64,000 bases of DNA from Erythrobacteraceae bacterium Alg239-R51. Its GTDB lineage: Bacteria > Pseudomonadota > Alphaproteobacteria > Sphingomonadales > Sphingomonadaceae. Both the position numbers and the translations under genes were made by a program. The notes below the pieces were generated by a model that saw nothing but the letters and a program-made list of their open reading frames with translations, ran no database searches and had not been told where the DNA came from. The stretch is taken from NCBI GenBank assembly GCA_947331495.1, contig CAMZOI010000002.1:248001-312000 (forward strand). Direction: 5' to 3'. Positions 11,511 through 42,047 of this stretch are shown here, piece by piece (position 1 is the first letter of the stretch; each line of letters begins with the position of its first letter).

Positions 11511-12552
11511 GCAATTGCAACCCCATTGCATCAGCGTTGCATCGCCATTTTTGCTTATTTGAACACCCCCACTACGTACTGGCGCAGGGCCGCGCGGAGA
11601 AGACCGAGCGATATGGGGCTAGGTTCCTATCGTAGACGCTCTCCGCAGACCCGTCATGATCGCGGAACCGCCCGGAACTGCGCCCTTCGGCAGAAGAAGG
11701 AAGATCGTTCTGGATCAACAACTTATAGATGGCGGAGACGGAGGGATTCCGATTGGAAGATTAAGTTATTGGATACAAATATCTTTCATTCCTTTCAAGC
11801 AATCTATGCCCCCTTGCGTGCCCCGATTTTCTCGTCTTTTAACTGCGTAACGAGGCAAAGCTCGCGAGTGTACCCATGGCCCTTGTGGTGTCCGCTGAGC
11901 GCCTCCAATGGCGACGTCTAGTCGTCGCCGAGCGACTTCTAAAAGCTGACGCTTACATCCAGTGAGTTGGCAACCTAGCGGATTGGAAGGCGCAGACGGT
12001 CGGGGTCGCAGGAGAAGGCAAGATCTGCGTAGCACTCGGCGTCAGGAACGCCAAAGCACGGCGAGGCCAGCGCGCCGAATACCATGGCTGCCGCGCCACG
12101 CTGCAAGACAGTTGGCTAGGGACCGACTGGTGTTGGCGAGATCGGCTTATGTACTGCAGGATTGCAAACCAATCGTTAGGCCGCGACGCTGAACTGCCGC
12201 CAAGACTGGAGGCTGCGGCAGAGGTCAGGCTCAGACGATTTCTGGCGATATGCAGACCGTCAAGCTCGCGATCACGGAAAGCAAACGGGGAAAAACGAGC
12301 TCGGCCCCAAATCGCGGACAGCGCGATAGACGAGCGTTCGTCGGAATAAGACATTTCTATAAATATCGTCAGTCCCTTCAAAAAACCCAGCTATTTGATT
12401 AAACGCAAAGACAGGCGCGGAGCTCGTAGATACGCCGGAATTTCCCCCTCCGTTTAAAGAAGACGCGGTCAAATTCGCGCTTCAGTTCCCTTTTGCCTGA
12501 TTGAAGTGAAACAACAGGAAAGCCAGAGCGACGCCAAGCTAAGTTCAGGTCG
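11511..12552. other. 1-kb region without a recognisable gene; contains left island junction
   Basis: Between the recombinase stop and the efflux-operon control region no frame gives a recognisable protein. Several short open frames exist on both strands but have no convincing start site or domain. The one clear element is a 20-bp copy of the tRNA-Ser 3' end at 11730-11749, annotated separately. The rest is likely junction debris. Confidence 0.5.
11730..11749 (+). repeat. putative island attachment site: copy of tRNA-Ser 3' end
   Basis: TGGCGGAGACGGAGGGATTC here is identical, in the same orientation, to 42028-42047, the 3' terminal 20 bases (CCA to T-loop) of the tRNA-Ser(GCU) gene. The match stops on both sides (A/G before, C/G after). 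No tRNA body is attached here, so this is a fragment. Direct repeats of a tRNA 3' end flanking an integrase-bearing segment are the classic signature of tyrosine-recombinase island integration. Confidence 0.8.
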
Positions 12553-12568
12553 TTCAGTTGATACTGAA
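12553..12568. promoter_or_regulatory. inverted repeat, candidate operator upstream of gbsR-type gene
   Basis: TTCAGTTGATACTGAA is a perfect 6-4-6 palindrome located 42 bp before the ATG of the GbsR/MarR-type regulator. The same TTCAGT-N4-ACTGAA arms recur at 22164-22179, upstream of the FnrL-type gene. Position and symmetry suit an autoregulatory operator for the adjacent regulator. Confidence 0.5.
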
Positions 12569-12609
12569 AGAAACCAGTGCTACTCGATTTTTCGAAAGGA
12601 TTGAAGGGA

Positions 12610-13086
12610 ATGTCCGGCAGCACAAACCATGGCCACACCGATGCGATCATCGAACAGCTAGGCCTGACGGCCGAAAGGGAGGGCATGCCCAGAATTTCCG
12701 GCCAGATCTGGGGGCTTTTGCTCGCTACCGAGACCCCCTTGAACGGCAAACAGATTGCCGAAAAACTGGCTGTTAGCCGCGGTAGCATCAGCACTGCTAC
12801 GCGCATGCTTGAAAGCTTGGGCGTCCTCGAACGCCGCGTCCGTCCAGGAGACCGGCAAACCTATTACGCGATGCGCGAGCACCCCTATTCCAACCTCGCC
12901 CGCTTGTCTGCCGAGCGCGCTCGGACCAATAGCCTGAAAATTCGCAAGCTTCGCGACGGGGAAGCGAACACGGAAACGCGGCAGAGGCTTGAGAACCTCA
13001 TGCATTTTTACGCGAATACCGCACATGCGCTGCAAAAATGCGCGGACGATCTCGCCGCATTTGCCATATCCGAAAACCGTGACTGA
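12610..13086 (+). CDS. GbsR/MarR family transcriptional regulator
   Basis: A 158-residue winged helix-turn-helix regulator. Residues about 20-100 contain the recognition region NGKQIAEKLAVSRGSISTA followed by the wing around ERRVRPGDRQTYYAM. A long C-terminal helix that probably mediates dimerisation follows. The ISGQIWGLLLATETPL segment fits the GbsR subgroup. ATG 12610 is chosen because it follows a purine-rich GAAGGGA and gives the expected N-terminus; the frame opens 11 codons earlier. It precedes the efflux genes by 47 bp on the same strand, so it likely controls that operon through the palindrome at 12553. Confidence 0.85.
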   Translation: MSGSTNHGHTDAIIEQLGLTAEREGMPRISGQIWGLLLATETPLNGKQIAEKLAVSRGSISTATRMLESLGVLERRVRPGDRQTYYAMREHPYSNLARLSAERARTNSLKIRKLRDGEANTETRQRLENLMHFYANTAHALQKCADDLAAFAISENRD

Positions 13087-13133
13087 GCCGGCCGTGAAGT
13101 GTTCCGCGACGGCATCACGCGAAAGCTAAGATC

Positions 13134-13874
13134 ATGCCTGTGAGCCAAATAGAGATCAGCGAGAATCTGCACGAGGCGATCTATCGCACTGTTGGCCTGA
13201 CCAAGGTCTATGGGGAAGGGGCGGCGGCCGTTCACGCGCTTCGCGGCGTCGATCTGGTAATTCCACCGGGCGAGATTGTCGTTCTGCTTGGCCCCTCGGG
13301 CAGCGGCAAATCGACGTTGCTCAATATCATAGGCGGACTTGATCGAGGGACAGATGGCGAGGCCTGGTTCGAAGACCAGAATCTTGCAGATATGAGCGAT
13401 GCCGAACTGACGATTTATCGCCGTGATAACGTCGGCTTCGTGTTTCAGTTCTACAATCTCATGCCCAGTCTAACCGCGCGCGAGAATGTCGAACTGGTCA
13501 CCGAAATTGCCGATGACCCGATGGATCCGGGCGAAGCGCTAGCATTGGTCGGACTGCACGAGCGTACCGATCATTTTCCCGCACAGCTTTCCGGAGGAGA
13601 GCAGCAACGCGTCGCCATCGCCCGTGCCATCGCCAAGCGTCCGCGGGTGCTGTTCTGCGACGAGCCGACCGGTGCGCTGGACAGCAAGACAGGGCGTGCC
13701 GTGCTCAAGGTGCTGAAGGAGGTCAATGAGACGCTCGGCTCCACGGTGCTTATCGTCACCCATGCAGCTGCCACCGCCGATATGGCGCACCGCGTCATCC
13801 ATTTCGCCGATGGCGATGTCCGCGAAGTCATAGAAAACGAAACACAAGCCGACCCGGACGAGATCGAATGGTGA
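13134..13874 (+). CDS. ABC transporter ATP-binding protein, MacB/LolD-like
   Basis: A 246-residue ATPase of the MacB/LolD/FtsE class that couples to FtsX-type permeases. Walker A is [15 protein letters not shown] near residue 56, the Q-loop is [18 protein letters not shown], the signature is [16 protein letters not shown], and Walker B with catalytic Glu is [13 protein letters not shown]. The H-loop is [16 protein letters not shown]. The gene ends 7 bp before the permease gene, so the two are co-translated partners. The wider operon, with adaptor and outer-membrane factor, indicates a tripartite export machine spanning both membranes. Confidence 0.92.
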
Positions 13875-13881
13875 TGCGGCT

Positions 13882-16245
13882 ATGAGCCCTCTCGACCGCA
13901 AGCTGTTGCGCGATCTGTGGCGGATCAAGGGTCAAGCCATTGCCATCGGCGCGGTCATCGCGGTGGGCGTCCTGATGCTGGTGATGATGACCGGCCTCGT
14001 CTCCTCGCTCGAGGAAACCCGCAAGGCATATTACGAACGCTATCGTCTTGCGGAAGTGTTTGCGCCAGTCACGCGCGCACCCGAACGCGTCGTGTCCGAA
14101 CTCGCAGCCTTGCCCGGCGTGGCGGCTGCGGAGGGCCGTGTGACCGGCGCGGCTCTCGTCGATATCGAAGGTAGCGCCTTGCCGCTTCAGGCACGGGTAG
14201 TCTCGCTGCCCGATTTCGGCGAACCCAAGCTGAACGACGTCTATCTGACGGGCGGACGCAGGCTGGAAGGGGATCGCACGGACGAGATCCTGCTGTTGCA
14301 AGGCTTTGCCGACGCCCACGGACTTGTGCCCGGGGACACATTGCGACTGACCGTGCGCGGCGCCCGACGCGACTTCCGGATCGTCGGCCTCGCGCAGTCG
14401 CCCGAATTTCTTTATGTCACCGCTCCGGGGGAACTCGCCCCGGACGATGCGCGCTTCGCAGTAATCTGGATGAGCCGGACAGCGGCGGAAGCGGCATTCG
14501 ACCTGCAGGGCGCGTTCAACGAAGCGCTGCTGTCTATGGCCCGTGGCGCCAGCGAAGCCGCAGTGCTCGACGCGGTCGACCGGATACTCGAGCCTTACGG
14601 CGGACAGACTGCCTATGGGCTGGAAGATCACGTCTCCAACCGGTTCGTAACCGAAGAGATAAGCGGTCTGCGCACGATGAGTACCGGGGTACCGCCGATC
14701 TTTCTCGGCGTGGCGGCGTTCCTGCTCTACATCGTCATTTCGCGGATGGTCGAGGCCGAGCGAGAGCAGATCGGCCTGATGAAGGCTTTCGGCTACAACA
14801 ACCGCGAAGTGGGCCTCCATTATTTCAAGCTGGTGATCGTGATTGCCGCAGGCGGTGCAGTAACCGGTTGCCTGCTCGGGATTGCCGCCGGGAATGCGAT
14901 GGCGGGTCTCTATCTTGAGTATTTCAAGTTCCCGTTTCTCATTTTCCAGCTTTCGCCCGGACCGTTCATCATCGGCTTTCTGACCAGCATCCTCGCCGCC
15001 TCGGCGGGCGGGCTGTTCGTGCTTCGCCGCGTGTTCGCGCTCACCCCGGCCGTGGCGATGCGCGCGGCCGCTCCGGCCGATTACTCCGGCGCAGGCGCAT
15101 TCGGCAGCGCACTCAACCGGCTGCTCGACCAGCCCAGCCGGATGGTCCTGCGGCGAATCACCCGTCAGCCTGGCCGGATGGTGGGGGCGATGCTGGGTAT
15201 CGCGGCGGGACTGGCGTTATCTGGTGCGATGATCGCCGTGATGTCGGGGTTCGACGAAACGCTCGGTATCGCCTTCGGGGTGATCGATCGCAGCGATGTG
15301 ACCGTGACATTCACCGATGCAAGGTCGGACAAGATCCTTCTGGAACTGGCTCGCATACCCGGCGTCAAGCACGTGGAGCCGGTACGGATGGTTCCCGCCG
15401 TCCTGCGCAACGGTCTCAAAACCCATCGCGGCGCGATCAGCGGACTGGTGCCCCGCCCGCGGCTCAACCGCGCGCTCGACAGCGATCTGGATCCGATCGA
15501 AATGCCTGGTTCGGGCGTGATCCTGGCAAGGCCGCTGGCCGATATTCTCGACATTTCTCCCGGCGAGATGCTGACCATCGAGGTGCGCGAAGGTCGCCAA
15601 CCGGATTTGCAGGTGCCGGTGGTCGGGCTCGCCGACAGCTTGCTCGGATCGCCCGCTTACATGGACATCGCGGCAATCAATCGCGCATTGAAGGAACCCG
15701 GGAGAGTGTCCGGCGCCTATCTCGCAATCGACGCCTCTCAGAGCGAGGCGATCTATAGCAGGCTGAAGAATATGCCGACGGTGGCGGGCGTCCATTTGAA
15801 GGATAATGCGCGGCGTTCGTTCCAGCAATTGATGGATAGCGGCGCAGGAGCGATGCGCTACGTCATGGCCCTGATCGCTTTCGTCATCACCTTCGGCATC
15901 GTCTACAACACCGCGCGTATCGCGCAGGCTGAACGCGAGCGCGACATCGCCAGCTTGCGGGTTATCGGCTTCACCAAATCCGAGGCGTCGTTCGTCCTGC
16001 TCGGCGAGATCGCGGTCGTGACCCTTCTCGCCTTGCCGATCGGCGCGGTGCTGGCCTTCTTCCTTACCTTCGGGGTCGCGGCCGGTTTCAGCAGCGACCT
16101 GTACCAAATTCCCGCCGGGTTCGGTCGCGCCGATTTCGGGATGGCCGCGCTCGCCGTTCTGGCCGCGTCTCTACTCTCGGGATGGCTCGTCAAGCGCGAC
16201 ACCGACCGAACCGATCTCGTCTCCGCTCTCAAATCCAAAGAATAG
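13882..16245 (+). CDS. FtsX-like ABC transporter permease with two permease domains
   Basis: A 787-residue inner-membrane permease. It has an N-terminal helix (residues 15-40), a periplasmic region to about 240, a first FtsX three-helix domain at about 265-395, a helix near 430-450, a second periplasmic region with EVREGRQPDLQVPVVGLADS, and a second FtsX domain at about 655-780. The duplicated FtsX arrangement resembles ABC-3 type permeases rather than the single-domain MacB fusion. The cognate ATPase is the gene just upstream. The substrate is unknown; drug, lipid or lipoprotein-like exports are all known for this class. Confidence 0.9.
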   Translation: MSPLDRKLLRDLWRIKGQAIAIGAVIAVGVLMLVMMTGLVSSLEETRKAYYERYRLAEVFAPVTRAPERVVSELAALPGVAAAEGRVTGAALVDIEGSALPLQARVVSLPDFGEPKLNDVYLTGGRRLEGDRTDEILLLQGFADAHGLVPGDTLRLTVRGARRDFRIVGLAQSPEFLYVTAPGELAPDDARFAVIWMSRTAAEAAFDLQGAFNEALLSMARGASEAAVLDAVDRILEPYGGQTAYGLEDHVSNRFVTEEISGLRTMSTGVPPIFLGVAAFLLYIVISRMVEAEREQIGLMKAFGYNNREVGLHYFKLVIVIAAGGAVTGCLLGIAAGNAMAGLYLEYFKFPFLIFQLSPGPFIIGFLTSILAASAGGLFVLRRVFALTPAVAMRAAAPADYSGAGAFGSALNRLLDQPSRMVLRRITRQPGRMVGAMLGIAAGLALSGAMIAVMSGFDETLGIAFGVIDRSDVTVTFTDARSDKILLELARIPGVKHVEPVRMVPAVLRNGLKTHRGAISGLVPRPRLNRALDSDLDPIEMPGSGVILARPLADILDISPGEMLTIEVREGRQPDLQVPVVGLADSLLGSPAYMDIAAINRALKEPGRVSGAYLAIDASQSEAIYSRLKNMPTVAGVHLKDNARRSFQQLMDSGAGAMRYVMALIAFVITFGIVYNTARIAQAERERDIASLRVIGFTKSEASFVLLGEIAVVTLLALPIGAVLAFFLTFGVAAGFSSDLYQIPAGFGRADFGMAALAVLAASLLSGWLVKRDTDRTDLVSALKSKE

Positions 16246-16263
16246 TCTGGAAACACCACACTC

Positions 16264-17460
16264 ATGGCCAAAAAACCAAAATCCCGGCTGATCCTGACGG
16301 TGCTCGCAGCCGTGGTCGTCGCGGCGCTGCTGATCTTCGCCTTCTGGCCAAGCCCGACGATGGTCGATATCGGCACGGTCACGCGCGGTCCCATGCAGGT
16401 GACGATCAACGAGGAGGGTCGAACGCGCGTGCACGATACCTATGTCGTATCTGCTCCAGTGAATGGGCAATTGCTGCGGATCGAAGCCGAGCCCGGCGAC
16501 TTGGTAAGCGCGGGCATGGTAATCGCGCGCATGACCCCGACACCGCTCGATGCGCGCAGCCGTGCCCAAGCGCAGGCAGCCATCGCATCGGCGCAAGCTT
16601 CCATCCGCGCGGCGCGGGAATCGGTAGAACAGGCGCGTTCGGACAAGCGACTTGCGGACGCGGAACTGGCGCGCGAGCAAGAGTTGTGGGAGTTGCAATC
16701 GACGAGCCGCGCTGCGCTCGACCTGGCAATACGCGATGCGGAAAACGCGCAGGCGGCGCTGGAATCCGCGCGATCCTCGGTCGCCATGCGCGAGGCCGAA
16801 CTGGCTGAGGCGCGCGCGCGATTGTTGGGTAGCGCACCCGGAGCAAGTGGTGGCGCGATTGCACTGCGGGCACCGGCATCGGGCCGAATCCTGGAAGTCA
16901 TGCAAGAGAGCGCCGCCACGCTTGCGGCCGGAACGCCCATTGTCGAAATCGGTGATGTCGGCAGCGATCTGGAAGTGCTGGTCGAACTGCTCTCTACCGA
17001 TGCTGTAACAGTTTCGCTGGGGGATCCGGTATTAGTCGAAGGATGGGGTGGAGATACGCCGCTGCGAGGCGTTGTCGTGCAGCTCGAACCGCAGGGCTTT
17101 ACCAAGGTATCCGCGCTGGGTGTCGAGGAACAACGGGTCAATGCGATCGTGCGCCTTTCAGCGGATCAGCCGACGAACGCCGGCCTGGGCAGCGGGTTTC
17201 GCGTCGAGGCACGTATCATCGTCTGGCAAGACCGCGACGCGTTGGTCGTGCCGGCAAGCGCACTGTTTCGTGATCAGGGCCACTGGGCCGTGTTAGCCGT
17301 GGACGGCGGCGAGGCGGTGCTGCGGCGCGTCACAATCGGGCGCAACAACGGGACACAGGCGCAAGTCCTCGAGGGACTGGAAGAGGGCGCGCAGGTCGTG
17401 CTCTATCCCTCCTCGGACCTGGCCGATGGCGAGGCCGTCGAGCAAAGGGAGGTGGGCTGA
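16264..17460 (+). CDS. HlyD/MacA-type periplasmic adaptor subunit
   Basis: A 398-residue membrane-fusion protein. A single N-terminal helix (residues 8-28) anchors it in the inner membrane. A lipoyl-like half-motif (VSAPVNGQLLRIEAEPGDLV) precedes a long Ala/Glu/Arg-rich alpha-helical hairpin at about 95-185. The second lipoyl half (LRAPASGRILEVMQESAATL) and beta-barrel regions follow. It bridges the ABC permease to the outer-membrane factor encoded 2 bp downstream. Usual family length is 350-400 residues. The start ATG follows the permease gene by 18 bp. Confidence 0.9.
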   Translation: MAKKPKSRLILTVLAAVVVAALLIFAFWPSPTMVDIGTVTRGPMQVTINEEGRTRVHDTYVVSAPVNGQLLRIEAEPGDLVSAGMVIARMTPTPLDARSRAQAQAAIASAQASIRAARESVEQARSDKRLADAELAREQELWELQSTSRAALDLAIRDAENAQAALESARSSVAMREAELAEARARLLGSAPGASGGAIALRAPASGRILEVMQESAATLAAGTPIVEIGDVGSDLEVLVELLSTDAVTVSLGDPVLVEGWGGDTPLRGVVVQLEPQGFTKVSALGVEEQRVNAIVRLSADQPTNAGLGSGFRVEARIIVWQDRDALVVPASALFRDQGHWAVLAVDGGEAVLRRVTIGRNNGTQAQVLEGLEEGAQVVLYPSSDLADGEAVEQREVG

Positions 17461-17462
17461 TC

Positions 17463-18950
17463 ATGCGAACCCAAGGAGCTCGATCGAGCAGCCCTCGACG
17501 CGCAAGGCGAGCGATCGCGTTGCTATCCCTGACAGCACTTGCCGGATGTACAACTGTTCAATCGACACCGCAGGCGAACCTCCCGGAACTTCCCGCCGCA
17601 TTTATCGCGGCTGATAGTCTGCAAACAGAACCGGTCGACAGCGATTGGTGGACGCGGTTTGACGACCCGCAGCTTGCCGCCCTCGTCAACCGGGCCGTTT
17701 CAGACAACCCTTCCGTGGGCATGGCTCTGGCACGAGTAGCACAGGCACAGGCGCGCGCGCGGATCGCCGGTGCCGACCGCTATCCGCAACTCGACCTTGC
17801 CCTGTCGGCTTCGCGCCAGCAGCAATCTCTCGCCAGCCTAGGCATCGTGCTGCCCGGAACGGAAGACGAAACGGACGAAACTTTCACCTACGACACATTC
17901 CAGCTTTCCGCACAGGTGAGCTGGGAACTCGATCTGTGGGGCAGGCTTTCCTCGCAAACCGCGGCTGCGCGAGCCAATTTTCTTGCGAGCGAGGCCAATC
18001 TGCTCGCCGCGCGGCAATTGATCGCAGCGCAGACAGCGCGCACCTATTTCGAAACGATCGAGGCAGACCAGCAGATCGAACTGGCGCAACGCACCGTCGA
18101 TGCCTTTGCGGAATCGGCGCGTCAGGTCGCCAATCGCGTTCAGGTCGGCAGAGCCGCGCCGAACGAAAGCTATCTTGCCAATTCGAACCTCCAGTCCGCT
18201 CGCGCCGAACTCGAGCGCCGTAAACAGCAGCACGCTCGCGCGGTTCGGAAACTCGACGCGCTGGTCCGGGCCTATCCCGATGGCGAAGTCGCCCTAGCCG
18301 GGGCCCTGCCCGAGATGCCCCCTGCTCCTCCCGCGGGACTTCCTGCCAACCTCCTCGAGCGCAGGCCGGACATCCTGGCGGCACGCGCTCGGCTTACGGC
18401 GACAGGCTACAGACTGACAGCGGCGGAACGGTCTTTCCTGCCTCAGATCGCACTCACCGGATCGGCCGGAACCGCCAGCACCGACATTGCAAATATCTTC
18501 GATCCCGATTTCTTCATCTGGTCGGTCGCCGGACGCCTGTTGCAGCCCGTTTTCCAAGGTGGGCGCCTGCGCGCGCAAGTTGCGGTGCGCGAAGGCGAGC
18601 GCGACGAAGCGGTGGAGGCGTTCGCCGATGTGGTTCTGACCGCGCTTTCCGAAGTCGAGATCGCACTTGCGCTCGACGCCTACCTGGCGCGTCAGGAAGC
18701 GGCCCTGGCCGAGGCCGCGCGCGAAGCCGAGCGATCGGTCGAGGTGGCATTCAATCGCTATTACGTGGGAAGAGAACAGTTTCTGACCGTGGTCGAAGGG
18801 CAGCAACGCGCCTATGATGCGCGCAGCACTCTTCTGAGCGTGCGACGGGCGCGGCTGGATAACCGGGTGGCGCTCCATCTGGCCCTGGGGGGTGGCTTTG
18901 CAGACGAACCGGGCCAGAGCGCGAGCGGCAACAGTATTGGTAGTCGGTAG
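17463..18950 (+). CDS. efflux transporter outer-membrane factor, NodT/OprM-like lipoprotein
   Basis: A 495-residue TolC-type channel. The N-terminus is basic, then hydrophobic, ending LSLTALAGCTT, a lipobox with Cys near residue 28. Two homologous outer-membrane efflux repeats follow (around residues 70-265 and 290-480), with the PQLDLALSASRQ and LPQIALTGSAGT strands typical of NodT proteins and NLLERRPDILAARARL between them. The start ATG lies 2 bp after the adaptor stop, with GGGAGGTGGG upstream as a strong ribosome site. It completes an ABC-adaptor-channel efflux set; the cargo cannot be told from sequence. Confidence 0.92.
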   Translation: MRTQGARSSSPRRARRAIALLSLTALAGCTTVQSTPQANLPELPAAFIAADSLQTEPVDSDWWTRFDDPQLAALVNRAVSDNPSVGMALARVAQAQARARIAGADRYPQLDLALSASRQQQSLASLGIVLPGTEDETDETFTYDTFQLSAQVSWELDLWGRLSSQTAAARANFLASEANLLAARQLIAAQTARTYFETIEADQQIELAQRTVDAFAESARQVANRVQVGRAAPNESYLANSNLQSARAELERRKQQHARAVRKLDALVRAYPDGEVALAGALPEMPPAPPAGLPANLLERRPDILAARARLTATGYRLTAAERSFLPQIALTGSAGTASTDIANIFDPDFFIWSVAGRLLQPVFQGGRLRAQVAVREGERDEAVEAFADVVLTALSEVEIALALDAYLARQEAALAEAAREAERSVEVAFNRYYVGREQFLTVVEGQQRAYDARSTLLSVRRARLDNRVALHLALGGGFADEPGQSASGNSIGSR

Positions 18951-19033: not shown

Positions 19034-20059
19034 TCAAAGTTCGATAACGATGCGGCCCTCGACCTTGCCGGCTTCAAGATTCGCGAAAACATCGTTGATG
19101 TCCTCCAACCGGGCCTTGCTGATGCGCGTCTTGACCTTGCCTTCATTCGCAAACTGCACGGCTTCTGCCAGATCTCTGCGATTGCCTACGATTGATCCGC
19201 GCATGGTAATCCGCTTCAGCACGACATCGAAGATCGGCGTGGGGAATTCACCAGGAGGCAGTCCGGTCAAGGCGATGGTTCCTTTTCTGCGAACCATTTT
19301 CAGGGCCTGCGCAAACGCGGGGACTGAAACAGCCGTGACCAGCACGCCCTGGGCCCCTCCCTCCGTTGCAGTATTCACCTGCTCGGCCGCGTCGTCGTCC
19401 AGCGCGTTGATCGCAACGTCCGCGCCCAGTTCCTTGGCGAGCGCGAGCTTTTCTTCGGCAACATCGAGCGCAACCACGTGCAAACCCATTGCTTTGGCAT
19501 ATTGAACCGCGACATGACCCAGACCGCCGATGCCGGAAATTGCCAGCCATTCGCCGGGCCTGGCCTCGGTTTCCTTGATGCCCTTGTAGGTAGTGACGCC
19601 CGCACAAAGTATCGGCGCCATAGCGGCGAAATCGACATCGTCCAGAAGCCGCGCCACGAAAGGAGCGGCACCGATCGCATATTCTGCGAATGTGCCGTTG
19701 ACCGTGTATCCGCTCATATGCTGGGCTTCACAGAGCGTTTCCCAGCCGGTTTCGCAATATTCGCAGTTGCGGCAAGCATCGTGCAGCCACGCGATTCCGA
19801 CCTTGTCGCCTTCCTTCAGATCGGTGACGCCTTCTCCAAGTGCGCTGACAATGCCCACCCCCTCGTGACCAGGGATGAATGGCAGGTTTGGTTTGACCGG
19901 CCAGTCCCCGGCGGCGGCGTGGAGATCGGTATGACAAACACCCGACGCCACGATTTTCACCAGCACTTCGCCGGGGCCGGGCTCCGGAACAGGAACCTGC
20001 TCGATGACCAGCGGTTTGCCAAACTCGTGTACAACCGCAGCTTTCATTGTCTTGGTCAT
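19034..20059 (-). CDS. adhP: zinc-dependent alcohol dehydrogenase, AdhP type
   Basis: NAD(P)-dependent interconversion of primary alcohols (ethanol in well-studied AdhP enzymes) and aldehydes. Catalytic zinc ligands lie in [13 protein letters not shown] and [10 protein letters not shown]. The structural zinc site has all four cysteines ([15 protein letters not shown]). The Rossmann fingerprint is [18 protein letters not shown]. The protein is 341 residues from ATG 20059, chosen because AGGAG lies 8 bases upstream; a GTG at 20068 overlaps that site. An FNR-type box lies about 64 bp upstream, suggesting induction at low oxygen. It fits a fermentation role alongside acetate kinase in the same block. 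Confidence 0.93.
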
Positions 20060-20122
20060 CGTCGTCACTCCTCTTCACACACTTTCGCCAGTCAGCCATA
20101 AGACGCGCGACAGAAGCGCGCG

Positions 20123-20136
20123 TTGATAAAGGTCAA
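20123..20136. promoter_or_regulatory. FNR-type box upstream of adhP
   Basis: TTGATAAAGGTCAA matches the FNR/FixK consensus TTGAT-N4-ATCAA with one substitution (G for A). It lies 64 bp before the adhP ATG, a distance that suits activation from about -41 of a short-leader promoter. A cognate FnrL-like regulator is encoded at 22221-22994. Confidence 0.65.
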
Positions 20137-20245
20137 TCTTCCTGATTGGTGATCGATATTGCGAACAATCGCGCCTTCGACCTGAGCACAGGACGCTGTG
20201 GCGCAGCGCAGAATGCTGCGCCGCGCCACAATGCTACGTCTAAGT

Positions 20246-20998: not shown

Positions 20999-21157
20999 GT
21001 GAATTCCATTAATGTTCTCGTGGGGGTTGGGAATCAAAGCCCGGGATACGGTCCTGCCGATCAATGTTCAGTGCGCTTCGATTCGATTTCCGGTTATCAC
21101 GATTGATTTTGTGGAATGTCCGCACGTGACCTTTGGCCCCGTGCGGCATCCAGCCAT

Positions 21158-21859: not shown

Positions 21860-21992
21860 AATTTCCTCGATATAGTTCAATGAGACTTCACCCCGGAAAG
21901 GGGTCGTTCGCCTCTCCTGCGGCCGCAATATTTTCAGGAAAATCCTGCTGCGTTGTGCCGGACCGGAAATAGCCCTTCCTCCGTCGCTGGCG

Positions 21993-22006
21993 TTGATTTT
22001 TATCAA
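21993..22006. promoter_or_regulatory. perfect FNR-type box
   Basis: TTGATTTTTATCAA is an exact match to TTGAT-N4-ATCAA. It lies in the divergent region between the outer-membrane barrel gene (134 bp from its ATG) and the FnrL-type gene (215 bp from its start), so it could serve either or both, including autoregulation of the regulator. Confidence 0.7.
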
Positions 22007-23833: not shown

Positions 23834-23836
23834 AAT

Positions 23837-32647: not shown

Positions 32648-32701
32648 GCTTTCTCCAAATAGACCCTGCGCACCTGATCGGTATTGCCGCGTTTGGCTGT
32701 C

Positions 32702-33460: not shown

Positions 33461-33474
33461 CTAAACTCCTGAAA

Positions 33475-34602
33475 TTATCTGGCGCCGTTATCGGCGAAAT
33501 TCTTGGCTGAAAATGGTGAGGTGCCTGCGACCTTGTGCAGGACCAGCAAATTGCCGTCCGGGTCGCGGCCGAAGATTGCCTGGCCTCCAGCAAAGCTCTC
33601 TGGCCCTGCGACCAATTCGCCGCCTGCGTCGACAAATCGCTTGCGCGCTCCGTCTAGGTCGGAGACGTCGAGTACGATCATGTTATAACCGGGCGCATCG
33701 ATCGGGCGAGGCTCGACCGGACGCTCTGGCAGATGGCTGTGATACTGGAAAATTTCGAGTTCGATATTGCGGATTTGGAACCACGCCATTTCAAGCTCGC
33801 TGTCCTTCAGCCCGGAAACCTGATCGATCGTCTCGCCAGAAACTGGAGACAGCCATCCGGTGTGGCGTGGCTCCTGTCCACCCAGAAACGCTGAGTAGAA
33901 TTCGATCATCGCGTCGATGTCGGGCGTCGCCAGCGAAACGTGGCGCATGCGGAATTTGTTCGTCGGCGGCTGAGGCAGATCGAGTGCGGCGACATCAACC
34001 TCTTCAATTTCGGTGATGATGCCATGCGGATCGGCGAGATAGCCGTAATAGACGGGGTTCTTCGGGTTGAGGTGTACCAGATCGGGCGCACCAATTGTGT
34101 TCGCGCCCGCTCGAACCATCTTGGCATAAGCGTCGGTCTCTTGAGCAACTTGGAAGCAGACATGTGCAATACCTGGACCGTTGACCGGAACGGCCGAGGT
34201 TTGCGTGCCGGCCTCTGAACGGTTAGCCGATGTCATCAGCCATAACTGCGCATTGCTGCTGCGGATGAGCCTGGAGCTTGGTCGGGCGTCGTCCTCGACT
34301 TCGTCCGTCGCGCCATCTTCTTCAGACACGCCGCTGGCACCGAAAGCTACGAACAGACCGGACGGATCAAGCGAAGGTGCATCAACCTCTTCTGTCGCGA
34401 CCGAGCTCGCATAATACGCCGCTGCCGCATCGACATCGTCGACATGAATGCCGACAAAATTCACACCCAAGATGATCGCATCGGGCTCAACTTCGCGCGG
34501 CGTCGCACTCTTGATGATGGTGTACCCCAGCCAGGCGGCAGCAAGCGCGATTGTCAGGACAAGCCCGACCAACGTCACGATTATCTTGCGCTTTTTAGTC
34601 AT
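33475..34602 (-). CDS. membrane-anchored protein with two VOC (glyoxalase-like) domains
   Basis: A 375-residue protein. An N-terminal helix (KIIVTLVGLVLTIALAAAWL) anchors or exports it. Two vicinal-oxygen-chelate modules follow, about 48-205 (VNFVGIHVDDVDAAAAYYAS, then GPGIAHVCFQVAQETDAYAK) and about 218-360 (FRMRHVSLATPDIDAMIEFY, then YNMIVLDVSDLDGARKRFVD). Candidate metal ligands are His and Glu in the strand pairs (HVDD, HVCF, ITEIEEVD, RHVSL), which fit dioxygenase, isomerase or lyase members. Periplasmic location is unusual for VOC enzymes. It is the first gene of the minus-strand operon and diverges from the TonB receptor gene. Confidence 0.82.
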   Translation of the reverse strand: MTKKRKIIVTLVGLVLTIALAAAWLGYTIIKSATPREVEPDAIILGVNFVGIHVDDVDAAAAYYASSVATEEVDAPSLDPSGLFVAFGASGVSEEDGATDEVEDDARPSSRLIRSSNAQLWLMTSANRSEAGTQTSAVPVNGPGIAHVCFQVAQETDAYAKMVRAGANTIGAPDLVHLNPKNPVYYGYLADPHGIITEIEEVDVAALDLPQPPTNKFRMRHVSLATPDIDAMIEFYSAFLGGQEPRHTGWLSPVSGETIDQVSGLKDSELEMAWFQIRNIELEIFQYHSHLPERPVEPRPIDAPGYNMIVLDVSDLDGARKRFVDAGGELVAGPESFAGGQAIFGRDPDGNLLVLHKVAGTSPFSAKNFADNGAR

Positions 34603-34657
34603 ATCTATCCTCGTTAGCCGGTTTGGCCATTGGCCCAGCCATGATCTTAGGTGACAC

Positions 34658-34680
34658 TAGTTGGACTGAAAGTCAAATTA
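34658..34680. promoter_or_regulatory. 23-bp imperfect palindrome between divergent promoters
   Basis: TAGTTGGACT-GAA-AGTCAAATTA has 10-base arms that match as a palindrome at eight positions. It lies in the 160-bp region between the VOC operon (minus) and the TonB receptor (plus). A TetR-type regulator encoded at the far end of the same cluster is the natural candidate to bind it. Confidence 0.5.
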
Positions 34681-34761
34681 AAGGCTTGGATATTGCGTGA
34701 AGTTAGCTTATCGCCTTATACAGGAGGACGCAAAGTCCATTTAATTAGGGAGAGAGGGAAA

Positions 34762-37176
34762 ATGTACACATCAGTCGGGAAATCCAGGCGGTTCACGCTG
34801 CTTACGGGAGTAGCCGCAGCCTCGTTGGCTGGATTCGCTGCCCCCTCTTACGCGCAGGACTTGGACGAGACCTCGGCAGCCGCTGATGCAGACGATGGTA
34901 ACGTTATTATTGTTACAGCCCAGAAACGCTCGCAAGACATTCAAGATGTGCCGATCGCCATTACAGCGTTCGATGCGGCCGAGATCGATAACAAGGTTAT
35001 CGACGACGTGGTTGACCTCAGCTTCTCCGTCCCCAACCTGACCGTGGACCAGTTCGGCGCGTCGCTGCGCGGCGTCGGTAATCTCGCCATCTCATCCACT
35101 GCAGAAGCCGGGCTCGGCTATCATGTGAACGGTGTCTATCTCGGTTCGCCCGCAATCGAAGCGGAATATTACGATCTGGAGCGGATCGAGGTTCTGCGCG
35201 GACCGCAAGGCACGCTGTACGGACGCAATACCACTGCCGGCGTACTGAACGTTATCACGCAAAAGGCAACCGATGAGTTTGAAGGCTATGTCACTGCCGG
35301 ATACGGCAACTACGATTCTATCAAGCTGCGCGGTGCGATCAATATTCCGCTGTCGGACAATCTGGCGACGCGCGTTGCAGGCTTCTTCCTTGATCGTGAT
35401 GGTTATTCGACAAATCTTTTTACCGGCAATGATGTCGATGACCGCGAGATGTTCGGCATCCGCAGCAGCACCAAGCTGGAATTCGGCAACACCCGCGCCG
35501 ATCTGGTCGTATCCTATTTCCGCGAGGATGACCGGCGGCAACTGCGCACGAAAGTGCTGTGTGTCGAGGATGTAGTGCTTGGGTGCTCACCACTTGAGAC
35601 AGGGTTTGGCGTGCCGAATTCGCAACCCACCGTCTATAATACCTTTGCCGTCGGACTGGGCTTGTTTGCGCCCGGCACCAACTATTTCGAGGGCAGTCTG
35701 AACCCTGCGGATACTCGTCTGCTCAACGAAGATGTCGATCCAAGCTATTTCGTTGAAGAATGGCAGGCGTCGCTTGAGATCACGCACGAATTCGGCGCGC
35801 TGACGCTAACCTCGTTGACCGGCTACACGGAGATAGAGCGCGACAGCTTTCGCGATTTCGATCGTTTCGTTCCAACGGTGAACCTACCGATCCCGGTCAC
35901 GTTCGATTTCTTTGGAGATGGAACCAGCGTCACAAGCAATGCGATCCTTAGCGGCCGCCGCGACCGAAGCGAAGAGCGAGAATATTACCAAGAACTGCGC
36001 CTGGCATCCGACTTCGACGGCGCGTTCAACTTCATCGTCGGCGGCAATTACTATGACCGCCGAGGCTCCAGCACCGCGATGTTCACCAGCAATATATTCG
36101 CGTTCCGCCAGCAAGTTACAGGACTGAGCGCAGAGTTTGCGACGCTGACCACTGAGACCGATCCCACGACCACAGAAAGCTTCGGCGTGTTCGGAGAGGT
36201 CTATTTCGACCTGACTGAAAGAACCCGCATCACCGGCGGCCTGCGCTACTCCGACGACAAGAAGACCATTCTGACACGTCAGATATTCTTCAATCCGGAA
36301 ACCGATGGCAGCGTGCCAGACTTTACCTTCGGCGATTTCGAGCGCGGCGTCGTGACCGGCCGGATCGTAATTGATCAGGACATTTCGGATGATCTGCTCG
36401 GCTATGCCAGCTACTCACGCGGCTATAAGGCCGGCGGCATCAACCCAGGCCAGATTGATGTCGGCGTGCGCGGCTTCGATCCGGAATTTCTGAACGCCTA
36501 TGAGATCGGCCTGAAAGGCGGCTCTTCCGATGGAACCTTCAATGCCAGTGTCGCGGCATTCTATTACGATTATGAAGGTTTGCAGCTCGGCCAGACGACG
36601 CCAACCTCGGCGCTGACGGTCAATTCCGATGCGACGGTTTGGGGCGCAGAGGCGGAATTCGCTATGCGTCCGTCAAGCCGCTTCCAGGTTGATGGCAGCT
36701 TTTCCTACCTCAATACTGAAATCGTCGGCTTCCAATCGATCGATGAAACCGATCCATTCGGCGTTGCGCCCGGTACGGTGATTGTCGCCGCAACGCCGGC
36801 TGGCGTGATCAAGAACGCAGATGGCAATCCACTGCCCTTCTCACCCGAGATCAAGGTTTCCATCGGCGCGCAATGGGAAATCCCAGTGGGTACATGGACC
36901 ATCACACCGCGGGTCGATCACTATCTGCAAAGCGAGTTTGTGAGCTCGGCCTTCGACAAGCCAATCGACCGGTTTGAAGGGTACAGCCAAACCGATCTGA
37001 AGCTTTTGCTCGCCCCGGACTCTGGTCCGTTCGAAATCCGCGGCTATGTTAAAAACCTGTTCGATAATGACGACATTACTCGCGTTTTACCTGCAGGCCG
37101 CTTGGTTGGCCGTTTCCGCGAAGTCGTGATCTTGGAACCGCGGACCTACGGGGTCGAAGCGACCTTCCGGTTCTAG
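34762..37176 (+). CDS. TonB-dependent outer-membrane receptor
   Basis: An 804-residue gated outer-membrane transporter. The start at 34762 follows GGGAGAGAGGGAAA and gives a signal peptide ending PSYAQDL. A TonB-box-like VIIVTAQKRSQDIQDVPIAI leads into the plug domain (about 50-160), with the RIEVLRGPQGTLYGRNTTAG motif that ends the plug. The barrel (about 200-804) ends VEATFRF, with C-terminal Phe. It belongs to the large sphingomonad receptor type that imports aromatic, sugar or terpenoid molecules as well as siderophores. The linked dehydrogenase, VOC and hydrolase genes point to an organic substrate rather than iron. The frame opens earlier at 34651, but the ribosome site favours 34762. 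Confidence 0.93.
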   Translation: MYTSVGKSRRFTLLTGVAAASLAGFAAPSYAQDLDETSAAADADDGNVIIVTAQKRSQDIQDVPIAITAFDAAEIDNKVIDDVVDLSFSVPNLTVDQFGASLRGVGNLAISSTAEAGLGYHVNGVYLGSPAIEAEYYDLERIEVLRGPQGTLYGRNTTAGVLNVITQKATDEFEGYVTAGYGNYDSIKLRGAINIPLSDNLATRVAGFFLDRDGYSTNLFTGNDVDDREMFGIRSSTKLEFGNTRADLVVSYFREDDRRQLRTKVLCVEDVVLGCSPLETGFGVPNSQPTVYNTFAVGLGLFAPGTNYFEGSLNPADTRLLNEDVDPSYFVEEWQASLEITHEFGALTLTSLTGYTEIERDSFRDFDRFVPTVNLPIPVTFDFFGDGTSVTSNAILSGRRDRSEEREYYQELRLASDFDGAFNFIVGGNYYDRRGSSTAMFTSNIFAFRQQVTGLSAEFATLTTETDPTTTESFGVFGEVYFDLTERTRITGGLRYSDDKKTILTRQIFFNPETDGSVPDFTFGDFERGVVTGRIVIDQDISDDLLGYASYSRGYKAGGINPGQIDVGVRGFDPEFLNAYEIGLKGGSSDGTFNASVAAFYYDYEGLQLGQTTPTSALTVNSDATVWGAEAEFAMRPSSRFQVDGSFSYLNTEIVGFQSIDETDPFGVAPGTVIVAATPAGVIKNADGNPLPFSPEIKVSIGAQWEIPVGTWTITPRVDHYLQSEFVSSAFDKPIDRFEGYSQTDLKLLLAPDSGPFEIRGYVKNLFDNDDITRVLPAGRLVGRFREVVILEPRTYGVEATFRF

Positions 37177-37217
37177 TGCCCGATCCGCTTGCATAGCGCA
37201 CTCACCGCCTCTCTCCA

Positions 37218-37256
37218 GATGGCTCGGCTTATCCAAGGTCGGGCCATCATTTTTTT
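37218..37256 (+). terminator. rho-independent terminator after the TonB receptor gene
   Basis: An 11-bp stem (GATGGCTCGGC pairing with GTCGGGCCATC, including two G-T pairs) encloses an eight-base loop and is followed by ATTTTTTT. It lies 42 bp after the TonB receptor stop and just before the hydrolase gene, so the two plus-strand genes may be only partly co-transcribed. Confidence 0.75.
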
Positions 37257-37277
37257 CGGATCAAGAATGGCACCGCA

Positions 37278-38312
37278 ATGAAACGGCTAGGCATCAAGTT
37301 TGGCGGCACTTTGCTTTCAATTATCCTGCTGGGCTTTGGGATCAGCCTGATTTGGTCGAACACTGAGTTGAAAGTCGAGCCCACGACAGCAGACCCTGCG
37401 GTCGCCTACCTGAACACGCAGTTCGAAAGCGGTGCATCGTTTCGTGAAAGCTACTTCGAGTATGCGGGCAACAGACTTCACTATGTTGAAGGGGGCGAAG
37501 GAGAGGTTGTGCTCTTCCTCCATGGCTTTCCATCATACTGGCTGTCACTTTCGCCGCAGATGGTGGCGCTGAAGGATCGATACCGGGTCGTCGCAATTGA
37601 TGGGCTGGGCGCGGGGCGATCCGACGCACCCTTAGACGCAAACCAGTATGGGCTCGAGCGGATGTCTGCCCACGTGATAGCATTGCTTGACGAACTGGGC
37701 GCAAACAGGGTGCATCTGGTGGGCCACGATTGGGGCTCGACCTTTGCATTTGGAATAGCTCAGCGGCACCCAGAGCGAGTGGCAAGCGTGACGGGGATTA
37801 GCGCCCCACCGCAAAATGTATTGCTCGAAAGCCTCGGAAGCGATCCGGTTGCCCGCGAGGCCGCTGCCTATATCGAACGGCTTAAAGCAGCGAATTCACT
37901 TCTGATCCTTGCGACAGGCGGCCACAAACGGGTCTGGACGGATGCGTACGAACCGCTGGTCGCCACTGGTCGTATGAAGCCCGAAGTGGGACAGTTGATG
38001 CGCGAAGCTACAGGCGATCCGCGCCGTCTCAACGCCCATATCAATTGGTACCGCGCGAATATTCCAGCAATCGAAGAGCTGAGTGAAGACGACTATTGGC
38101 CTTCTAGGGACGCACGCCTCTCGATGCCCGCCCAGATGATTTGGGGCGAGGATGATCCCATTATGGTTTTGGTCTACAATGAACGGCTTGCCGATCTCTC
38201 GGATAACCTTCTTATGCTCACTCTGCGGGGAACCGGTCATTGGCCGCATATCGAGCGCGAAGCAGAAGTGACTGAGGCGATTTTGGCACTCATCACAGAG
38301 GCGTCGGGCTAA
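37278..38312 (+). CDS. alpha/beta hydrolase, epoxide hydrolase-like, N-terminally anchored
   Basis: A 344-residue hydrolase. An N-terminal hydrophobic segment (GGTLLSIILLGFGISLIWS) suggests membrane anchoring or export. The fold starts near residue 60 with LHYVEGGEGEVVLFLHGFPS (oxyanion HGFP). The nucleophile elbow is VGHDWGSTFAF, with Asp as in epoxide hydrolases and haloalkane dehalogenases. The acid residue is in WGEDDPIMV and the base in GTGHWPHIE. A cap region lies at about 170-260. It is separated from the TonB gene by a terminator yet shares its strand. Hydrolysis of an imported epoxide, ester or lactone is a reasonable inference. Confidence 0.88.
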   Translation: MKRLGIKFGGTLLSIILLGFGISLIWSNTELKVEPTTADPAVAYLNTQFESGASFRESYFEYAGNRLHYVEGGEGEVVLFLHGFPSYWLSLSPQMVALKDRYRVVAIDGLGAGRSDAPLDANQYGLERMSAHVIALLDELGANRVHLVGHDWGSTFAFGIAQRHPERVASVTGISAPPQNVLLESLGSDPVAREAAAYIERLKAANSLLILATGGHKRVWTDAYEPLVATGRMKPEVGQLMREATGDPRRLNAHINWYRANIPAIEELSEDDYWPSRDARLSMPAQMIWGEDDPIMVLVYNERLADLSDNLLMLTLRGTGHWPHIEREAEVTEAILALITEASG

Positions 38313-38333
38313 GCTTGGCCGTAATTGAGGTCT

Positions 38334-38969
38334 TCAACGTTTTAGTTTTCGCCTCCGGATCATGTAATCATCTCTGACCCCATTGATCGAACCGATGATC
38401 ATCGACACGGTGATATCCTGCAGCTTCTCGATATCGATGTCGTGGCGGAGCAGATATGATCCCGCCGCAGACGGCACGCCGAAGGAAATATCGGTCACCG
38501 CGCGGGCTGTTTCCAAAGGGATGTCGAAATTGCGGTTCACGATGCCCGCGAGATAATCGACCGCAATGTCGCGATTGAAGGCTGTCGGATCCTTAGTTTC
38601 GGAAATCGCGGGATCGGCCTGCAAGCGCTCTATCAGCAATCCCTTTTTCGAGATATTCCGCAGATACGTCTTGGTAATTCCCTGAACCAGCTCTTCAAAG
38701 GTATCGGCGGCTTCTGCTGCTTGAAATTGAGTTTCGCGCAGATATGTCAGCTCGCGCTGCAAGAGCTTTCGTAAGATCTCGCTGGTACTTTCGAAGTATT
38801 TGTAGATCAGAGACTTACTGATTCCAGCCTGCTTCGCCACGCGTTCCATTGAGACCTGCGATAACCCTTCGTGCTCTACCATAGTAGCGGCGGCATCGAG
38901 GATCATGGAACGACGTACCTCGGGCGAGTAGCGCCTTTTGATTCTGGTTTTCTCTGCCGTTTTCGTCAT
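38334..38969 (-). CDS. TetR family transcriptional regulator
   Basis: A 211-residue repressor-type protein. The N-terminal HTH region (YSPEVRRSMILDAAATMVEH, then ERVAKQAGISKSLIYKYFES) is typical, with the SLIYKYF recognition helix. A C-terminal helical ligand domain follows. The gene is convergent with the hydrolase gene, ending 22 bp from its stop. It most likely controls the catabolic cluster at 30.2-38.3 kb, with the ligand being a pathway compound. A palindrome at 34658-34680 is the best candidate operator. Confidence 0.9.
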   Translation of the reverse strand: MTKTAEKTRIKRRYSPEVRRSMILDAAATMVEHEGLSQVSMERVAKQAGISKSLIYKYFESTSEILRKLLQRELTYLRETQFQAAEAADTFEELVQGITKTYLRNISKKGLLIERLQADPAISETKDPTAFNRDIAVDYLAGIVNRNFDIPLETARAVTDISFGVPSAAGSYLLRHDIDIEKLQDITVSMIIGSINGVRDDYMIRRRKLKR

Positions 38970-40125: not shown

Positions 40126-40350
40126 TTACATGCCTACGAAGGTGGTTCGCGGATGATGCCTGAGGTTATTCCTTGCTGGTCGATGCATATCGTCAGCGAC
40201 CGATTTCGAAACTGCGTCGAAGAGGTCGCCTGCGTCCCGTTCCTCGAGCCAAAACGGACGGATCATGATGTCATCGTGCCCCTCTTCGATGAGGGTCTGC
40301 CGGATATTCTTCACGAACTTGCGAAGCTGGCTGCGAAATTCATTGTTCAC
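40126..40350 (-). CDS. hypothetical small protein, 74 residues
   Basis: The frame starts with GTG at 40350, with AGGAG placed seven bases upstream, an excellent ribosome site. The product is hydrophilic, with a helical basic N-terminus (NNEFRSQLRKFVKNIRQTLI) and an acidic middle (ERDAGDLFDAVSKSVADD). No known domain is recognised. It lies between the island debris and the integrase gene, a common place for small accessory genes of integrative elements. Expression is plausible from the ribosome site, but homologues would be needed for proof. Confidence 0.45.
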   Translation of the reverse strand: MNNEFRSQLRKFVKNIRQTLIEEGHDDIMIRPFWLEERDAGDLFDAVSKSVADDMHRPARNNLRHHPRTTFVGM

Positions 40351-40552
40351 TTCGTTTCTCCTTGCGGAGCAAGGCGAGGCATTTTCCCCTCTGTAACCTT
40401 ACTCACCGATCCTGACGACACATCGTCAACCCAAACGCGAATCGCTGCGGGAACGAGCGCGGAAGTTCGGCCTTAAATCCCCAAAGATTTAGAAATTTCT
40501 ATTCCCCAGCACGGTTGGACCGCGTTACCCAGGGCACAGAAGCGAAGGAGGT

Positions 40553-41869
40553 CTAAGTGACCGCGCGCCTCCTGCCGCCGATGAGTTCCTGAAGCGGGAC
40601 GGCGTCTACGAGAATGTGATCCGCCCATTCATTTGCGAGTTCACGCCGGCGTTCGGAGAAACGCGAGCGGTTGTAGGCGAACTCCTCCGCGCTCATCCCC
40701 GTCGGCAGATGCGCCAGCATGATATCGATCACCAACCGGTCGATCATGAACCGCTGCTCCGCCATCAGTCCACGTTCGAGCTTCTCGTTCATGATCGTGG
40801 AGAAGCTGGTTCGCCAGCCATGGGGCACGTGCTTCCCCTTGAACCCCTGCCGTCTGTATAACGAGTTGAGGGCGTTCTCCGACATCGGAGCGTGGGAATT
40901 CCAGCAGTTGGGAAACACGTAGGGTCCGAGCCCCGTCAGCTTGCGGACCTCGAACAGCACTTCGAGTGCCTGAGACGCCAAGGGGACGTCGTGGTCGAAC
41001 TCCTCATCGCCCCGCCGGTCAAACTCGAGCTTCATTTCCTCCGAGTTGATGTACCAGTGCGCGGCGGGAGAGGCGTCAGGCCCCTTCGACCATTCGATGT
41101 CCTGAAGGTGGTCCCATTTCATCCTGTGGACCATGCCCGGGCGTTGCGCGACCAATGCGAGGAAGCGCGAGGCGAGACGCGTCACAGGGTATGAATTCGA
41201 GGTGTCGATCCGGCGGATCAACGCCCTGACTTCCTCGACCTTCGTAAGGGCCGGCCACTTCCTTCGTTTGGGCACAGGGCTCATCGCTTCCTTGATCTCG
41301 GTAGCCGGGTTGCCAATGATGGGCACGCCTTTCGCCTTGGCGTAGCGGATCACTCGCTCGATGCGCTGCCGCAGACGATGCGCCGTCTCGATGGCACCCC
41401 GCTCCTCGACCTTCTCCAACACTCCAAGGAGCACTGGCTCGTTTAGTTCATGGATGGGCAACGGCCCCACGTGCGGAAAAAGATCCCGCTCCATTGAGTT
41501 CAGAACGTCATTGGCATGGACAGGGCGCCATCTCGGCTTCTGGACCTTCCACCAATCGCGCGCATATTTTTCGAACGTGCCTGAGGCCAGCTCTTGGTTC
41601 GCCAGTCGCTGCTTCTTGACGTCGATCTGGGGGTCGCGTCCCTCCTTCAACGCGAGCTTCGCCGAATCGCTTCTACTTCTCGCATCCGAGAGCCGCACCT
41701 CCGGGTAGGTACCGATCATCAACCGCTTCTCCTTGCCAAGATAGCGGTACTTGAGGCGTCAGGTCTTGTGCCCAGTCTTCGACACGAAGAGGTAGAGCCC
41801 ACCGGAATCGGATAGCTTGTAATCCTTGTCTCTGGCCTTCGCTTGTCTGGCCGCCGCGTCGGTCAACAT
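40553..41869 (-). pseudogene. tyrosine-type (P4-like) integrase with an in-frame stop
   Basis: From ATG 41869 the frame reads a DUF4102-type arm-binding N-terminus (KDYKLSDSGGLYLFVSKTGH) and reaches TGA at codon 37, where the family has Trp (HKT-stop-RLKYR). The frame then continues uninterrupted for 402 codons. The catalytic domain keeps its Arg (VAQRPGMVHRMKWDHL), H-x2-R (HGWRTSFST), LAH (MLAHLPTG) and Tyr (AYNRSRFSERR). Only that one base change separates it from an intact gene of about 438 residues. A shorter product could start at an internal Met (41722) but would lack much of the arm-binding domain. It is transcribed away from the adjacent tRNA-Ser. Confidence 0.85.
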
Positions 41870-42027
41870 CCGTGCCCCCAATCCGCTGAATGGGTGCCCC
41901 CGGCGTGCCCCCACTTGGTTCCGGATGATGATGGAACCCGTCGGACCCTAATGGAATCCTAACGTCTCGGAAATCTGGGGAATATTCCGGCGTCCGGAAC
42001 GTCTCGGACGTCGGCGGAACGGGTGGT

Positions 42028-42047
42028 GGCGGAGACGGAGGGATTCG
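42028..42047 (+). repeat. putative island attachment site at the tRNA-Ser 3' end
   Basis: TGGCGGAGACGGAGGGATTC is the 3' terminal 20 bases of the tRNA-Ser gene read on the plus strand. It is the direct-repeat partner of 11730-11749. A core extending from the T-loop to the CCA end is a usual crossover zone for tRNA-targeting tyrosine integrases. Confidence 0.8.

Follow-up and report, generated by a model that had tools for sequence, protein, structure and literature searches.

The DNA analysed here is a window of 64,000 nucleotides from Erythrobacteraceae bacterium Alg239-R51 (contig CAMZOI010000002.1, positions 248,001 to 312,000), and positions are those of the window unless another locus is named. 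The segment 11730-42026 is a genuine tRNA-anchored genomic island, ordinary in kind and with a precise boundary. We hold with high confidence that this 30.3-kb island was put into the 3' part of a tRNA-Ser(GCU) gene by the tyrosine integrase encoded at its right end, landing between the tRNA and an older element with a serine recombinase. Taken alone, the island is a clearly delimited new example of a class already known; the association of such serine recombinases with tRNA genes is the new part.

Boundaries of the island

When the ends of the segment were compared, an identical 20-bp sequence, TGGCGGAGACGGAGGGATTC, was observed in the same orientation at 11730-11749 and 42027-42046, with differing flanking bases on both sides. 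It equals the last 20 bases of tRNA-Ser(GCU), CCA included, and spans the T-loop to the CCA end. A first-pass annotation of this DNA had reported a perfect repeat at both ends; the identity and the left copy stand, and its right copy (42028-42047) was one base off. Its placement of tRNA-Ser(GCU) at the right end agrees with the calls of ARAGORN (42027-42118, minus strand) and Rfam (42030-42118). The length between the repeats is 30,297 bp. In the bacterium's own 2.91-Mb genome (4 contigs) the exact 20-mer occurs twice only; three further matches at 2-3 mismatches each lie within other tRNA-Ser genes, and a backwards control pattern gave no match there at up to 3 mismatches.

An exact repeat alone is no proof of an island because other exact 20-mer pairs occur in the window. 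The present repeat coincides with a tRNA 3' end and therefore counts as island evidence, unlike a bare 20-mer pair. An unrelated long-range pair was found at 8448-8467 and 53249-53268. The window holds 38 repeated 20-mers in all, and among the first 20 listed is a run of exact direct repeats at 59432-59488 and 60744-60800 (spacing about 1.3 kb).

Island-free site in the same genus

The empty site anticipated by the first-pass annotation was observed in the same-genus genome G009, where sequence like the left flank of the window joins a single tRNA-Ser(GCU) directly, with no island (z = 12-14 for window 11630-11729 against the 100 bp before the intact G009 tRNA). For 21 other relatives, the junction z was 4.4 (G011), 2.4 (G017) and -1.4 to 1.1 (the rest). 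The right end of the island showed no homology to G009 (z -0.6 to 0.2). The G009 serine recombinase is 58 % identical to that of the window, and the distance from its end to the intact tRNA is about 259 bp.

A total of 23 same-genus loci were fetched (20 of 18 kb, one of 14.5 kb and two short), G012 being left out because its match was fragmentary. A tRNA call was obtained for 22; the contig of G005 has none. Within up to 15 kb of the tRNA, the island cargo was found as a block in 0/23 loci, and the acetate kinase AckA was found in only one of 26 same-genus genomes, the bacterium's own. Isolated integrase matches occur near the same-genus tRNA (49 % identity in G008; 27-28 % in G002, G007, G010 and G022), and G008, with its integrase at the same tRNA, carries two further displaced exact copies of the tRNA end on another contig. 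Other isolated matches were the serine recombinase of G009 and COX genes in G013; elsewhere, transporter, TonB and OEP genes gave weak matches.

At most 4 of the 23 loci have any one gene family in common on the 3' side of the tRNA, and for this reason no outer boundary could be set for the accessory region as a whole. This was likewise the case at a tRNA-Leu site in G019, where homology to four relatives ends 10 bp past the tRNA.

The tyrosine integrase and its sister islands

As the first-pass annotation had described, an integrase gene lies just inside the right end and reads away from the tRNA; its frame, however, is broken by one in-frame TGA (41759-41761). The residue aligned to this codon is Trp in 27 of 29 homologous loci and Phe in the other two. 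The part after the stop matched Phage_int_M above the Pfam cut-off (100 bits), Arm-DNA-bind_3 (26.3 bits) and Phage_integrase (23.0 bits) just under theirs, and PRK09692 with 155 bits (cut-off 434). By this domain pattern, with scores partly below cut-off, the protein is a putative P4-type tyrosine integrase.

When the part after the stop was used as the query (E ≤ 1e-60), homologues were found in 38 of 199 family genomes, the bacterium's own included (61 rows, 7 of them with inner stops). A tRNA was present upstream, on the strand of the integrase, in 27 of the 30 retrieved loci (own included): 22 Ser, 3 Lys, 1 Met and 1 Gln. The other three had no tRNA within the roughly 1.5 kb examined. Paired homologues in opposite orientation and a few kb apart were also observed (G257:C3, G146:C1, G159:C1, G225:C1 and G185:C114).

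The window 20-mer was then searched at up to 3 mismatches in 12 integrase-bearing genomes. In three of them, each from another genus, the same contig holds a second copy of the tRNA end on the side of the integrase: G189 (tRNA-Ser(GCU), copies 27.9 kb apart), G119 (tRNA-Ser(GCU), 49.9 kb) and G087 (tRNA-Ser(GGA), 49.0 kb). The paired copies agree within each genome over 20 bp or a few more, and only one copy per sister island falls in a called tRNA gene. Compared with the window 20-mer, one base differs in G189 and three in G087. The EipA-aminotransferase flank of the window is also present in G189 and G119. When the window proteins were searched between the copies (E ≤ 1e-10), no cargo match was found in G189 or G087, and G119 gave two CRP-type regulators only (34-35 % identity).

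We propose that crossover would have occurred within the 20 bp running from T-loop to CCA end, so that the island's own copy of the tRNA end restored the tRNA (42027-42046) and the original end was displaced to 11730-11749. The recombination itself is deduced from the anatomy, the island-free relative and the sister islands. The nonsense codon suggests that the island is now likely immobile in cis; it would probably be fixed unless a related integrase helps in trans.

Some observations weigh against this account. Of the 12 genomes, just 3 clearly have a second copy on the same contig, on the side of the integrase; the other nine showed no clear one, some of these with the integrase near a contig end. 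The junction z of 4.4 in G011 is unexplained. Since G009 is not a close strain, as its recombinase identity shows, independent arrival of related recombinases is possible. The search for cargo in whole relatives covered 11750-27000 only. Finally, the GC content of the island (0.586) is just slightly below that of its left (0.601) and right (0.615) flanks; the comparison suggested at first pass gave no compositional support, as the difference is too small to be evidence of an island.

A serine recombinase family at tRNA 3' ends

The gene left of the island encodes a Resolvase domain followed by a Recombinase domain, the arrangement by which we class it as a large serine recombinase. Its conserved part begins near 9855 in the alignment. 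Against the CcrB (SCCmec) equivalog NF047343 it scored 133.6 bits, far under the cut-off of 900. The displaced tRNA fragment lies about 220 bp downstream.

Genome contigs were scanned for relatives with a 7-sequence alignment, and the best 80 of at least 587 confirmed stretches were kept. Loci with at least 800 bp downstream, or with a tRNA seen, were considered evaluable (71 of the best 80). A tRNA was found within 800 bp downstream in 54/71, at a distance of 172-447 bp, and in all 54 its 3' end faces the recombinase gene. These tRNAs represent 16 anticodon types (16 Gln, 15 Ser, 5 Met, 4 Leu, 4 Tyr, 3 Arg, 2 Lys, 2 Ala, 1 Thr, 1 Asp and 1 Glu). Over all 80 loci, 56 tRNAs were present in 57,468 bp of such downstream DNA versus 4 in 798,757 bp elsewhere. 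Six of the 17 loci without a tRNA hold a tRNA-3'-like 20-mer (at least 16/20) at 100-600 bp, compared with 2 of 120 control stretches; the window scores 20/20 when the test is repeated on it. In 11 loci where no tRNA had been called next to the gene, no Rfam family reached its gathering score.

A quick tree was drawn from 56 recombinase sequences (the 54, the window and G009), the inner stops of 10 rows being set to X. The tRNA amino acid changes 18 times on this tree, versus 29-37 times in 200 shuffles. The window, G009 and L077, all at tRNA-Ser, cluster together with a support of 80. A weak motif, GANTG, was observed in the pooled rows at -7 to -3 just outside the tRNA; the window's own copy deviates from it.

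The association was much weaker in viral contigs. A tRNA stands beside the recombinase in 8 of 52 evaluable contigs (facing it in 7 of the 8), and tRNA-like 3' ends (at least 16/20) occur in 8 of the other 44, versus 4 of 110 control stretches. Trimmed host flanks could explain this and may do so; even so, the result counts against a universal tRNA rule for the family.

In the 11 tRNA-Gln genomes with this family, a second 20-mer copy was present at up to 2 mismatches in four and absent in seven; at up to 3 mismatches, 5/11 had none. Nine tRNA-Ser genomes were searched in the same way and are harder to read because each has several tRNA-Ser genes. These counts suggest that crossover by the serine recombinases often takes place near the CCA end, with no 20-bp repeat remaining; the island of the window differs in this. 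No far end of the serine-recombinase element was found for the window or G009, and in 37 loci no copy of the adjacent tRNA end exceeded the control level within 3-6 kb upstream. As the far ends were not found, integration by the serine recombinase is argued from position, orientation and inheritance only.

On balance we lean, with some reserve, towards the following view of the DUF2924-linked large serine recombinases. They would form a large and mainly alphaproteobacterial family that integrates site-specifically at tRNA 3' ends, with the target (Gln, Ser, Met, Leu, Tyr and others) inherited along with the protein. The crossover point would be close enough to the CCA end that a long tRNA repeat is often absent, and tyrosine-integrase islands would later wedge between element and tRNA.

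Several candidate attachment (att) sequences were also looked at. In L093, L094 and L131, an unexplained tRNA-3'-like sequence with a T-loop motif lies 2.6-3.2 kb before the end of the serine-recombinase gene and could represent the distal att site in elements of very small size. L076 and L108, from two distant hosts, have in common an inverted repeat, GACTGGATGG..CAGTC, about 230 bp past the recombinase, which is perhaps a free attP. An inverted-repeat attP model (GACTG...CAGTC) was dropped, as it was strictly positive in just 2/21 genome loci and 0/44 viral contigs. With one mismatch per arm it was positive in 5/21 and 7/44, and in 4/16, 0/16, 0/36 and 1/23 of the controls. In the Acidithiobacillus phage AcaML1 the best match was 16/20 at the recombinase end and at the record junction, a score that controls also reach.

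Probable successive layers at the tRNA

The repeat had been thought to bound the whole accessory region. This does not hold: a further tRNA-linked recombinase gene adjoins the left boundary, and the island is therefore one layer and not the whole region. The older layer would be the element with the DUF2924-serine recombinase pair (9439-11510), between which and the tRNA the island would have landed, a layer order that we infer from G009 and a comparable remnant in G087. In the latter genome a 31-residue match to the serine recombinase start (window residues 13-43, 69 % identity, E-value 3e-6) lies left of the displaced fragment, about 115 bp from it. G087 is thus a second case of the order serine-recombinase DNA, fragment, tyrosine-integrase island, tRNA. 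In G119 an integrase with 28 % identity lies just left of the displaced fragment. The tRNA-Ser has probably been used in succession by two unrelated recombinase classes.

Left of the window on the same contig, an AlpA-type HTH gene and an apparent C-terminal part of a tyrosine integrase were observed (L068:10718-12019; C2:238718-240019). The integrase trace scores 20.8 bits, below the Pfam cut-off; at the DNA level it matches a portion of the window's integrase at 70 %. The 12 kb or so leading up to this trace are 82-86 % identical to G022 and G002, and this homology ends near L068:11950-11966. Four DNA homologues, in G008, G012, G020 and G022, lie about 1 kb from tRNA-Ser 3'-end matches. The trace is perhaps a third, older layer at the same tRNA.

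COX2/COX1 and Na/Ca exchanger genes also occur left of the island (window 4851-8533 and L068:14282-15310). Relatives of these genes (36-46 % protein and 74 % DNA identity) are present in G013 on the same side of the same tRNA.

Cargo and alternative origins

The features of the region are listed in Table 1. The three cargo blocks named by the first-pass annotation (efflux, FNR-type fermentation and TonB/PQQ catabolism) were borne out by Pfam, with the Fnr-type regulator scoring below the FnrL cut-off and the membrane PQQ dehydrogenase just below that of TIGR03074. Among the matches listed for window 11750-27000, same-genus genomes show scattered genes and no block, while the efflux operon and pta-ack have 65-73 % matches in other families of the order. 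Neither relaxase or conjugation genes (as in integrative and conjugative or integrative and mobilizable elements) nor phage structural or packaging genes were found among the island open reading frames (ORFs) scanned with Pfam, small and antisense ORFs not being scanned.

Table 1 Features at and around the tRNA-Ser(GCU) island
Feature	Position	Strand	Basis or remark
DUF2924 gene, overlaps serine recombinase start, outside island	9439..9858	+	Pfam PF11149, 122 bits
Large serine recombinase, intact frame, 583 aa, outside island	9759..11510	+	Pfam Resolvase 135 bits, Recombinase 51 bits
Recombinase-to-tRNA spacer	11511..11729	+	Last 100 bp homologous to sequence abutting the intact G009 tRNA
Left island end, displaced 20-bp copy of tRNA-Ser(GCU) 3' end	11730..11749	+	Exact sequence match
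Cargo 1: ABC ATPase, MacB/FtsX permease, HlyD adaptor, OEP outer-membrane channel	13134..18950	+	Pfam
Cargo 2: zinc alcohol dehydrogenase, SpoIIAA-like, outer-membrane barrel, Fnr-type regulator, MaoC-Pta fusion, acetate kinase	19034..26448	.	Pfam/NCBIfam
Dicarboxylate symporter and YkuD L,D-transpeptidase	26635..29163	-	Pfam
Cargo 3: membrane PQQ dehydrogenase, SDR, glyoxalase-type protein, TonB receptor, alpha/beta hydrolase, TetR regulator	30191..38969	.	Pfam/NCBIfam
Tyrosine integrase gene, broken	40553..41869	-	Reads away from tRNA; Phage_int_M
Right island end, 20 bp of intact tRNA 3' end	42027..42046	+	Exact sequence match
tRNA-Ser(GCU), intact	42027..42118	-	ARAGORN, single tRNA call in window
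Conserved right flank: EipA and class I/II aminotransferase	42303..44417	+	23/23 same-genus loci fetched

The island may be a composite, with at least two insertions or rearrangements between the repeats and cargo blocks that arrived separately, an origin which is compatible with insertion by the tyrosine integrase. The three blocks are unrelated in function, and in genomes of other families the matches of the efflux block and of the pta-ack block lie at different places; however, the repeat is present in the genome in two copies only, with no internal att copy. We regard a composite origin as a real but less than even possibility.

It is improbable that the 20-bp fragment was instead left by the serine-recombinase element, in the manner of DsiB, with the tyrosine integrase as a passenger. 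The same fragment type is found in the sister islands of the tyrosine-integrase family, and a tblastn search of the sequence to the left of the fragment (10.4 kb in G189, 6.3 kb in G119) detected no serine recombinase. The short distance from the recombinase to the fragment would suit such an origin, as would the Dehalococcoides islands, where 20-bp repeats that end in the tmRNA T-loop are associated with a CcrB-type serine recombinase (PMC3146451, available portion). A second 20-mer copy in 4/11 tRNA-Gln genomes also speaks for it, but most of these genomes lack one at up to 2 mismatches, and nearly half at up to 3. The island ORFs that were scanned with Pfam included no serine recombinase. 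That there is no island at all, the segment being old chromosomal DNA with a repeat that arose by chance or from a tRNA, is hardly credible: it could appeal to the GC content near that of the flanks and to the second exact long-range 20-mer pair, but is contradicted by the G009 junction, the single AckA genome, the tRNA-bound integrase family and the three sister islands.

Comparison with known systems

The island carries an acetate kinase gene without counterpart in the 25 other same-genus genomes sampled. The habit of the serine-recombinase family is less expected. Serine integrases are said not to specify tRNA genes (PMC4383910, available part), and the family found at tRNA 3' ends in 54/71 loci runs counter to this stated rule, which a specialist would not expect. 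Exceptions are described in the accessible sections of two other papers: DsiB at ssrA in Dehalococcoides (PMC3146451) and a Paracoccus phage predicted at tRNA-Met (PMC6536676). In the portion of the main text available for a 2022 survey of large serine recombinases, the word 'tRNA' is absent (PMC10083194). Within the open-licence papers searched, the serine-recombinase-tRNA association was not found in print and DUF2924 is named only in Wolbachia papers; it has been called partly a RAMA DNA-binding domain (PMC11342252, available part). Island finders that tie tRNA sites to tyrosine integrases alone would miss such elements. The family also provides a set of related serine integrases whose many targets differ naturally and are inherited, a help in studying how these enzymes select their DNA.

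When compared with Islander-type tDNA islands, as these are described in the available part of PMC4383910, the window has the same intact tRNA, displaced 3' fragment and integrase between them, beside the tRNA. It differs in its outer neighbour, a tRNA-linked serine recombinase. The Dehalococcoides ssrA islands with DsiB resemble it in their tandem arrangement and their 20-bp copies of tDNA 3' ends, and a CcrB-type serine recombinase stands beside their att site as a serine recombinase stands near that of the window (PMC3146451, same portion). However, tmRNA and a serine recombinase are paired in Dehalococcoides, whereas in the window the 20-bp repeat belongs to tRNA-Ser and a tyrosine integrase, the DUF2924-linked serine recombinase lying outside. 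The Paracoccus phage vB_PamS_Pami6, with a serine recombinase and a predicted tRNA-Met site, is similar by description only; it is the sole serine-recombinase phage with a site predicted in the available part of PMC6536676. The serine recombinases of Wolbachia phage WO are nearly full-length relatives of that of the window (about 34 % identity), a likeness in sequence only.

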